Source: Gemmobacter aquarius (GTDB lineage Bacteria; Pseudomonadota; Alphaproteobacteria; Rhodobacterales; Rhodobacteraceae). Taken from it: 64,000 bases of DNA. Position numbers and translations under genes: made by a program. Below are positions 58,577 to 59,884 of the stretch, one piece after another (the first letter of the stretch is position 1; every line of letters starts with the position of its first letter). Location of the stretch: positions 194,001 to 258,000 of the forward strand of contig NZ_CP028918.1 of assembly GCF_003060865.1 (NCBI RefSeq), in the 5' to 3' direction. The notes beneath the pieces were generated by a model. It saw only the letters and a program-made list of their open reading frames with translations, was not told the origin of the DNA and made no database searches.

Positions 58577-59203
58577 ATGACCCGCATCCAGACTTATGGC
58601 GTGATCGCCATGGCCATCGTCGTGGTGGCCTCGAACATCCTTGTGCAGCATCCGATCGGCCAGTGGCTGACGTGGGGTGCGTTCACCTATCCCTTGGCGT
58701 TTCTGGTTTCGGATATCGTCAACCGGCTGTCGGGCGCTTCGGCAGCGCGGCGGGTGGTTTATGTGGGCTTTGTCGTCGGGCTGGTGTGCAGCTGGGTCGG
58801 CACGCAGGTGGCGGGCGAGTTCGGCCCGCTTGTGACACTGCGCGTGGCGGTCGGGTCGGGGACGGCGTTTCTGATCGGGCAGCTTCTGGACATCGGGGTT
58901 TTCAACCGTTTGCGCCGGTCGGTTGCGTGGTGGAAAGCGCCGTTCGTCTCGACCCTGTTCGGGTCGACCATCGACACGGCGATCTTCTTTACCATCGCGT
59001 TTTCGACCGGTCTGATCTGGATCGAACCCGGTAACGATGTGTCATGGGCGGCGGAACCGATGCCGCTTCTGGGCTTTGGTCCGATGGTGTCTTTGTGGGT
59101 TTCGCTGGCCGTCGCGGACTGGCTGGTCAAGGTTGCGGTCGATGTGATCGCCCTGTTGCCGTTTCGATTGGCGGTTTACCGCTTTGCAGCACGGGTAGCG
59201 TAA
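58577..59203 (+). CDS. Queuosine precursor transporter (YhhQ/VUT family)
   Basis: 208-aa inner-membrane protein, about six helices, of the COG1738/DUF165 family that imports preQ0/preQ1. Typical stretches are FTYPLAFLVSDIVNRLSGASAARRVVYVGF and the STLFGSTIDTAIFFTIAF segment. The riboswitch candidate immediately upstream supports the substrate. Only weak GGA precedes the ATG, and it is inside the pseudoknot. Confidence 0.9.
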   Translation: MTRIQTYGVIAMAIVVVASNILVQHPIGQWLTWGAFTYPLAFLVSDIVNRLSGASAARRVVYVGFVVGLVCSWVGTQVAGEFGPLVTLRVAVGSGTAFLIGQLLDIGVFNRLRRSVAWWKAPFVSTLFGSTIDTAIFFTIAFSTGLIWIEPGNDVSWAAEPMPLLGFGPMVSLWVSLAVADWLVKVAVDVIALLPFRLAVYRFAARVA

Positions 59204-59209
59204 TTTCTT

Positions 59210-59400
59210 TTGACAAACACAAAATCTGTGTCACCTTTTGGGTATCGGCAACCCATTGAAAGGAGGTGATCCAGTGTCTAGAGCTACATTGGAGATAGGT
59301 GTCAGGACAGTCGGGGGGCGTGTTTTCTAAGGGCAGCCCCTTGGATAAACAGACTACCGATTGGGCTTGGTACCTAACTGGCCCATCTCCTTGGATCTCG
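59210..59400 (+). promoter_or_regulatory. Structured leader upstream of arfB with an extreme Shine-Dalgarno
   Basis: Perfect -35 TTGACA (59210-59215), no clear -10. AAAGGAGGTGATCC (59259-59272) complements the last 14 bases of 16S rRNA. The following GTG is in a stem TCCAGTGT/ACATTGGA (59270-59293, one G-U). Further stems AAGGG/CCCTT (59329-59342) and TGGGC/GCCCA follow. CTCCTT (59386-59391) can pair with AAGGAG, and GGAGAT (59291-59296) with ATCTCC (59384-59389), so alternative folds exist before the terminator at 59401. Confidence 0.55.
59274..59330 (+). CDS. Possible 18-aa leader peptide
   Basis: GTG start seven bases after AAGGAGG, 18 codons beginning M-S-R-A-T-L-E-I and ending G-G-R-V-F, then TAA. 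The ribosome site is the strongest in the window. No homologue recognised. It could be a leader peptide, a small protein, or the ribosome site could serve another purpose such as 30S capture. Confidence 0.4.
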   Translation: MSRATLEIGVRTVGGRVF

Positions 59401-59431
59401 GAAAGGGTCGCCTGTGTCGGGCGACCCTTTC
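59401..59431 (+). terminator. Strong terminator between the leader and arfB
   Basis: 12-bp perfect stem GAAAGGGTCGCC / GGCGACCCTTTC with a 7-base loop, then TCTGTTTTG. It precedes the arfB ATG by 24 bases, so transcripts from 59210 must pass it to reach arfB. Confidence 0.8.
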
Positions 59432-59455
59432 TCTGTTTTGAAGGCAGGTCGGGTT

Positions 59456-59884
59456 ATGGAAATGCTGCGGATCAATGACACGCTGGTGATTGCCGACTGG
59501 GAGTTGAGCGAGAATTTCTCGCGCTCGTCGGGGCCGGGCGGGCAGAATGTGAACAAGGTGGAAACGGCGGTCGAATTGCGGTTCGAGGCCGAGCGGTCGC
59601 CGCATCTGGGGCCTGCGGTCAAGGCGCGGCTGAAGCGGATCGCGGGGCGGCGCTGGACCACGGAAGGGGCCATCGTCATTCGCGCCGAGGAGACGCGGAG
59701 CCAGATCCGCAATCGGGAAATGGCGCGGGAGCGGCTGGTCGAGATGATCCGCGAGGCGCTGGTGGCGCCCAAGCGGCGGGTGGCGACAAAACCGACATGG
59801 GGCAGCACGAAACGGCGGCTGGCGGCCAAGGCGGTGCGCGGCGAGGTGAAGTCGCTGCGGGGGCGGGTGGACGGCGAGGAGTGA
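59456..59884 (+). CDS. arfB: Ribosome rescue factor / peptidyl-tRNA hydrolase ArfB
   Basis: 142 aa. Releases stalled nascent chains when an mRNA ends without stop codon. Catalytic GGQ in SSGPGGQNVNKVETAVELRF, then a basic C-terminal tail (RRVATKPTWGSTKRRLAAKAVR) that enters the empty mRNA channel. ATG at 59456 (or 59462) behind a weak AGG. The long leader with a terminator suggests conditional expression. Convergent with pncB across a hairpin array. Confidence 0.94.
   Translation: MEMLRINDTLVIADWELSENFSRSSGPGGQNVNKVETAVELRFEAERSPHLGPAVKARLKRIAGRRWTTEGAIVIRAEETRSQIRNREMARERLVEMIREALVAPKRRVATKPTWGSTKRRLAAKAVRGEVKSLRGRVDGEE

Follow-up and report, generated by a model that had tools for sequence, protein, structure and literature searches.

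Between the gene for a queuosine precursor transporter and arfB, which encodes a ribosome-rescue peptidyl-tRNA hydrolase, the 64,000-nucleotide stretch of Gemmobacter aquarius DNA analysed here as a whole (the window) carries a putative small RNA gene. Its features are an unusually long Shine-Dalgarno (SD) sequence, a mini-ORF, several predicted helices, a copy of the 16S rRNA anti-SD sequence and an intrinsic terminator (Table 1).

Table 1. Features of the small RNA locus and its two neighbours, in positions of the window
Feature	Position	Strand	Basis or remark
Queuosine precursor transporter gene, upstream neighbour	58577..59203	+	TIGR00697 E 1.4e-30, PF02592
TTGACA, probable -35 element of the small RNA's own promoter	59210..59215	+	Position matches TTGAC in relatives
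Putative small RNA gene	59243..59432	+	5' end from promoter spacing (inferred); 3' end at the terminator
Extended SD GAAAGGAGGTGATCC, 15-base complement of the 16S 3' tail	59258..59272	+	
Start-codon hairpin, CCAGTGT ... ACATTGG	59271..59292	+	Predicted fold; no covariation support
18-codon mini-ORF VSRATLEIGVRTVGGRVF	59274..59330	+	Start GTG at 59274; stop TAA at 59328-59330
Helix P2, 59308-59314 (codons 12-14) with CCGATTG at 59357-59363, after the stop	59308..59363	+	Permutation test
Hairpin holding the stop codon	59327..59344	+	Permutation test; changes on both sides among aligned relatives
CATCTCCTT, copy of the 16S anti-SD, pairing with the ribosome site	59384..59392	+	Helix conservation
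Intrinsic terminator	59400..59432	+	Terminator scan; hairpin -26.3 kcal/mol
arfB, ribosome-rescue peptidyl-tRNA hydrolase gene, downstream neighbour	59456..59884	+	NF006718 E 3.1e-54, PF00472

The stretch from 59243 to 59432 looks like an autonomous unit, with a terminator of its own and a promoter-like -35 box. In 25 of the 47 elements of the window's group (group A) TTGAC stands at -49 from AAAGG, where the background is 0.04 per position, and it is found at -48 in six, -50 in four and -51 in two others. No -10 consensus stands out in these 47 elements, and a sigma-70 promoter scan of the window returned no site; in the two other groups that we compared (B and C) CTTG lies at -50 to -52, and near -27 there is a -10-like site. 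The strong terminator described ahead of arfB in the first-pass annotation of this DNA was recovered, the scan of the locus finding one terminator where 0.9 would be expected by chance. A custom scan, run with no null, detected a terminator-like hairpin in 152 of 155 loci, its stem starting 100-200 nt past the core sequence in 145.

Ribosome site and 16S pairing

The first-pass annotation had drawn attention to a 14-base complementarity with the 3' end of 16S rRNA, far beyond that of a normal ribosome site, and both parts of this claim stand. AAAGGAGGTGATCC is exact at 59259-59272, the single exact copy in the window, and a G at 59258 extends the match to 15 bases. The duplex of the 15-mer with 16S rRNA is predicted at -26.8 kcal/mol, against -15.7 for the strongest and -8.7 for the median of 49 window ORFs selected by a custom filter for gene-like ORFs. 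With up to three mismatches AAAGGAGGTGATCC has four matches in the window, where 3.75 are expected, and the ribosome site is the only copy of AAAGGAGGTGATCCA within one mismatch in the window's assembly. A chance match was rejected on these copy counts and on a reversed-pattern control that found none, and a 16S fragment or pseudogene was rejected because the match goes no further than the tail and a conserved start codon comes next.

The 16S reference was a typed 60-base query for the 3' end of the rRNA, ending in GGATCACCTCCTTTCTAAGGATG. It matches 379 plasmid or chromid records, 202 of them at 99% identity or more, and the best 30 of the 379 matches, among them named Rhodobacterales replicons of Cereibacter sphaeroides and Ruegeria, are all at 100%. 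Searches of the window's assembly did not find the 16S tail, and no recognisable tail turned up in 20 relatives, which suggests that these assemblies do not show rRNA.

The constancy of the site was followed in 70 loci of the Rhodobacteraceae, namely the best 30 matches to a family covariance model and 40 hand-picked from the other matches listed; the set includes the window's own genome (L240) and repeats of two genomes (G002 and G020). The full 15-mer is present in 48, and 11 carry the change GGTGGTCC, with which G-U pairing to 16S rRNA is still possible. The first base is changed in four, one of which is also altered, in a G-U compatible way, at the last base. In the other seven the extension past GGAGGTG is broken and no longer fits 16S rRNA, which argues that pairing over all 15 bases can be dispensed with. 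In L215, L238, L288, L291 and L299 the extension is changed or shortened, yet the mini-ORF still has 18 codons.

These figures bear on the possibility that the RNA is never translated and serves as a 16S-tail antisense that blocks or guides 30S subunits in hibernation or in 16S 3'-end maturation. A complementarity that reaches into the normal spacer would suit such a role, as would the 48 full-length and 11 G-U compatible sites; yet seven extensions are broken, copies with altered extensions keep their 18 codons, and start codon, frame and stop are all conserved. We consider an untranslated antisense very improbable.

Probable translation and predicted fold of the mini-ORF

The 18-codon ORF noted earlier was confirmed, with its start inside a predicted hairpin, and its dimensions are strikingly constant. 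Among 108 distinct family elements, picked by synteny or by covariance model only, the ORF has exactly 18 codons in 104, 20 in three and 24 in one, and starts with GTG in 106 and TTG in two. Codon 19 is TGA in 45, TAG in 41 and TAA in 18; TGG does not occur, where 17.7 cases would be expected if the two variable positions are assumed to be independent. Stops are found in the two other frames of 58 and 61 of the 108 elements. Two elements combine a TTG start with a shorter spacer (L215 and L299) and a third has the shorter spacer (L238), all three at 18 codons. In other lineages TTG follows a spacer of the usual length (L217, L218, L219, L223, L225 and L226); the TTG starts came from matches based on the covariance model or on Rfam.

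Beyond the family, 190 elements were defined by sequence pattern with no ORF filter, a set with some dubious members (L161, L185 and L201). In 177 of them the ORF has 14, 18 or 20-26 codons, and there is no stop before codon 14. The three groups used for comparison were delimited differently: the 47 elements of group A all have 18 codons by construction, and groups B and C were selected by the start of the peptide and a length below 40. An anchor found in 63 of 84 group B elements is in phase in 58 of the 63, at distances of 32 to 47 in steps of three, and two anchors defined by pattern in group C keep phase in 13 of 15 and 12 of 17. Since the A/GTG start, and in the search with the 21-base core the TC after it, were part of the search patterns, conservation of the start in those sets is not independent evidence.

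The first-pass annotation had proposed conservation of the mini-ORF as a check, and the outcome is divided: length, frame and stop are kept, but the amino acids are not. The pN/pS ratios of the three groups are 0.92, 0.85 and 0.75, compared with 0.66-1.1 in other frames, and variability is similar across the three codon positions (0.71, 0.77 and 0.66 bits). With ratios of this order translation seems to be selected and the peptide not: the mini-ORF seems to behave as a translated frame in which start, frame, length and stop are under selection and the amino acids are not. One published observation counts against translation of the mini-ORF, namely that in a profiling study of Caulobacter the ncRNAs, mostly intergenic, were reported as not translated, CC2171, an RNA relevant here (see below), not being named in the part of that source available to us (PMC4117421).

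If the peptide mattered, the locus could be a microprotein gene with an incidentally very strong ribosome site. The conserved start, frame, stop and length would fit, as would the Met/Val-Ser start that is widely shared, if partly built into the search pattern, and the longer copies of Azospirillum, which look like a real protein. Against this stand the pN/pS ratios and the nearly equal variability of the codon positions, the lack of peptide similarity between groups beyond the start when compared by eye, and the passage of conserved RNA helices through the ORF. We consider a microprotein gene quite unlikely.

Some lineages have departed from the common form. In Azospirillum-type copies (three named Azospirillum genomes and one further genome: L090, 6757, +; L114, 2508, -; L123, 5185, +; L179, 1500, +) the extended site starts an ORF of 56-59 codons with a signal-peptide-like beginning, MSHGA...LLTAG.A.A, and here the mini-ORF may have turned into a secreted small protein. 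Bradyrhizobium-type copies (L071, L077, L081, L082, L094, L103, L105, L118, L133 and L134) have a 14-codon mini-ORF with an invariant end, KRCHLAGIAR, and variable codons 3-4. At L161 the 21-base core precedes a 100-codon ORF, which we take to be VirB3/TrbD-like; perhaps a conjugation gene has a strong ribosome site here by chance or by borrowing.

The RNA has a folding z-score of -5.19 relative to shuffled sequence. In the predicted fold the ribosome site pairs with CATCTCCTT, and masking of the site by this distal anti-SD copy, which had been suggested from the window alone, finds support among relatives: all seven pairs of the consensus helix are intact in 46 of 47 aligned sequences, and the helix averages 8.14 in the window's group against 5.68 in shuffled sequences, with 28 of the 47 elements at or below the 2% level. 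The excess is absent from groups B and C (5.01 against 4.99 and 5.05 against 5.22 shuffled). The anti-SD copy can thus, by this measure, mask the ribosome site in Rhodobacteraceae only, of the three groups tested, and a switch of that form cannot be class-wide. Opening the site is predicted to cost a median of 12.0 kcal/mol in group A, against 4.9 and 4.3 kcal/mol in the other two groups.

Other helices involve the ORF itself. In permutations that, like the shuffles and the P values of the phase and stop-codon tests, ignore relatedness, the true partners of helix P2 (codons 11-15 with the segment after the stop) and those of the stop-codon hairpin beat the permuted ones, none of 1000 permutations reaching the observed value in either case; the stop-codon hairpin also shows changes on both sides in aligned relatives. 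A pairing of codons 2-10 with the segment that precedes the terminator, seen in groups B and C, likewise exceeds all 1000 permutations. Weaker tests gave 111/1000 (group B) and 8/1000 (group C) for the remainder of the ORF against the region past the stop, and 14/1000 and 3/1000 for a hairpin before the stop. No covariation was found for the start-codon hairpin, whose score is equalled or exceeded in 897 of 1000 permutations, or, in the window's group, for codons 3-10 with the 3' part (479 of 1000). The permutation tests show that conserved, predicted helices link the ORF with the RNA's 3' part.

Distribution, kinship and gene context

The family covariance model, trained on the 47 elements of group A, matches 176 of 198 genomes of the family, taken to be Rhodobacteraceae from named loci that share the synteny, and is without a match in 22; in the window it matches 59247-59429 at 192 bits, this copy being in the training set (model R1). 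The window's stretch itself matches 18 of 18 other genomes of the genus and 27 of 41 relatives in all. The 21-base core is present in at least 120 stretches from named genomes, and the 80 listed titles with the core include Rhodobacterales, Rhizobiales, Caulobacterales, Rhodospirillales and others, orders that we in part presume from the genus names. With a looser core pattern 89 of 385 class genomes are positive, against none with the reversed pattern, and so are 80 of 398 genomes drawn across the phylum; among the latter a single genome (G480) lies outside the class, and its match looks like an unrelated coding start.

A mobile element was rejected on the single copy in 88 of the 89 pattern-bearing class genomes, and a plasmid-borne element on the absence of any match between the 251-base stretch and plasmids. 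One genome (G036) has two copies with different spacers (C1 805113-805130, +, and 2922051-2922068, -). The 21-mer is also present on six putatively viral contigs, five of which may be host DNA, with ORFs like those of the Bradyrhizobium, Methylobacterium or Brevundimonas copies, the ORF of the sixth (L213) being unrelated and longer.

The search with Rfam at curated cut-offs gave no match in the window. In a permissive search of 351 bases RF01867 (CC2171) matches 59250-59428 end to end at 41 bits (E 1.9e-7), the gathering cut-off of this family being 75 bits. Of 289 genomes of the class, nine have a match to RF01867 that passes the cut-off and 61 have one at E <=1e-3, as does one of 14 control genomes, that of Caulobacter vibrioides. 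The two RNAs share the core GAAAGGAGGUGAUCCAGUGUCU, identical letter for letter in the cmscan alignment and inclusive of the extended SD and start, and they are similar in length, each with its own terminator directly after the structured part. They differ in that four of the seven outer-helix pairs of the Rfam model are non-standard in the window, in the ability of the window's branch to mask the ribosome site with an anti-SD copy instead, and in that the Rfam entry, as far as it was available, describes an sRNA gene and mentions no ORF. The long-range helix that CC2171 forms from codons 3-5 to the segment preceding the terminator is absent from the window's group (4.47 with own partners, 4.54 swapped); it is present in group B (6.7 against 6.14) and in group C (5.48 against 4.68 swapped). 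Since neither the cut-off score nor the outer helix is attained, we call the RNA a divergent relative and do not file it as a CC2171 member; on the best reading of these comparisons it belongs to an RNA that occurs across the class and is related to CC2171, and forms the branch of that RNA in Rhodobacteraceae. The survey of Caulobacter sRNAs is said to be that of Landt et al. 2008. In the literature covered, CC2171 or RF01867 appears only in a row of a Mesorhizobium sRNA table and in an Rfam update list, and the titles and abstract openings, mainly of papers outside the subscription literature, contain no mini-ORF or 16S pairing for a CC2171-type RNA; such RNAs seem to be without a described function.

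Gene neighbours were called with a simple custom ORF caller. Among the matches listed (120 named-genome loci) the queuosine transporter is upstream in 30 and missing in 90. At the 30 transporter loci arfB is the next gene in 21, displaced in four, not found in four and beyond judgement at a contig edge in one (L087). It lies downstream at none of the 90 listed loci without the transporter, 13 of which are within 800 nt of a contig end, and upstream on the other strand at two (L075 and L116). Of these 90, 77 could be scored for the orientation of the next ORF, which is antisense in 38 and sense in 39; proteins encoded downstream of the listed transporter-less loci form 58 clusters of 82. In the 70 family loci arfB follows immediately in 59; it is not found in seven, three have another arrangement (counting the mis-oriented L299) and one is not assessable. 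Loci with no arfB within the fetched stretch include L005, from the window's genus, and L062, L072, L093, L127, L271, L289 and L302, among others. With 59 of 70 loci in the family and 0 of the 90 listed without the transporter, linkage to arfB is a strong family trait and not a property of the RNA.

The first-pass annotation had raised as possible a design in which the state of the ribosome on the mini-ORF decides read-through into arfB, had given a stand-alone small RNA as the alternative, and had stated that an element found away from arfB in many genomes would refute control of that gene. Such elements are what the listed loci contain: translation of the mini-ORF gained comparative support, control of arfB fails as a general function, and the stand-alone small RNA, class-wide and with no constant neighbour, is the better reading.

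A leader that acts in cis on arfB could nevertheless exist in Rhodobacteraceae. With few free 30S subunits the ribosome site would be left empty, pair with the terminator's 5' arm and allow antiterminated read-through; with many, the terminator would form. Besides the position of arfB at 59 of 70 family loci and 21 of the 30 listed transporter loci, the spacing would be in keeping with such a leader: the gap from terminator to arfB is 35 nt or less in 47 of 100 gaps, among which repeats are possible, so there is often no room for a promoter of arfB's own, and the gene may need read-through or a promoter within the RNA. Among competitors for the terminator's 5' arm the ribosome site ranks first (-16.1 kcal/mol), with a pairing that averages -12.4 against -6.6 kcal/mol shuffled in the window's group and is weaker in the other groups (-9.9 against -6.9 and -9.7 against -6.5). 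However, this competitor is weaker than the terminator itself (-26.3 kcal/mol), the ribosome site is also contested by the anti-SD copy close by, and some loci have the RNA with arfB displaced or not found, in addition to the 90 listed loci from which a downstream arfB is absent. We consider a cis leader of arfB unlikely. It keeps some weight on account of the short gaps and of the ribosome site as best competitor, and attenuation of arfB is possible as an output specific to the family. The tail of the ribosome site, GGUGAUCC (59265-59272), can pair with 59400-59414 in the terminator 5' arm, a possible antiterminator.

A proposed switch of fold by ribosome capture

We lean towards the reading, somewhat more probable than not on this comparative evidence, that the locus encodes an autonomous RNA whose fold is switched by capture of a 30S subunit and translation of the mini-ORF, and we infer that engagement by the ribosome is the selected event. 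In the closed RNA of Rhodobacteraceae a free 30S subunit would displace the anti-SD copy through its much longer 16S pairing, the -26.8 kcal/mol of which would pay for the masking cost of about 12 kcal/mol (group median). Translation of the mini-ORF would then unwind the helices that span it, and the RNA would shift from a closed, untranslated form to an open, ribosome-loaded one. The open form could expose the 3' segment for action in trans, and in Rhodobacteraceae its anti-SD-like stretch may pair with mRNAs. Alternatively, the open RNA might simply hold 30S subunits or, specifically in this family, alter read-through into arfB. A wider formulation is that of a class-wide sensor of free 30S subunits. 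Its ribosome site would match the single-stranded 3' end of 16S rRNA such that the RNA is opened by available 30S subunits alone, perhaps those with a tail free of bS21, with translation of the fixed-length, sequence-indifferent mini-ORF as its readout and a coupling to arfB in Rhodobacteraceae; we advance it tentatively and think it unlikely.

The RNA is present in 176 of 198 genomes of the family, spread through the class and seemingly without a described function. An ORF of fixed length with an indifferent peptide, joined to a near-maximal 16S pairing, could make it a probe for the sensing of free ribosomes by RNA, and also of what extended SD pairing is for.

Four other systems invite comparison. 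The rnTrpL/peTrpL RNA of Sinorhizobium is likewise a small alphaproteobacterial RNA with a translated ORF, of 14 codons, but it is leaderless and derived from the trp attenuator (PMC10117765), whereas the window's RNA has an extended ribosome site and, outside the family, no constant downstream gene. Pos19 of Rhodobacter sphaeroides is also a terminated small RNA with an ORF; by its description, the only basis on which we set it apart, it is 219 nt long and RpoE-dependent, has ORFs of 150 and 135 nt and was not found in other species (PMC5036791). The SisA-D RNAs of Caulobacter also carry an anti-SD-like stretch, but, compared by description only, no mini-ORF or SD masking appears in the part of the account available (PMC12559287). 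Extended SD-anti-SD helices of Staphylococcus aureus resemble the predicted pairing of the window's site in continuing into the spacer and differ in acting on ordinary mRNAs, and the same source argues that bS21 would hinder extended SD helices in E. coli (PMC13009471).
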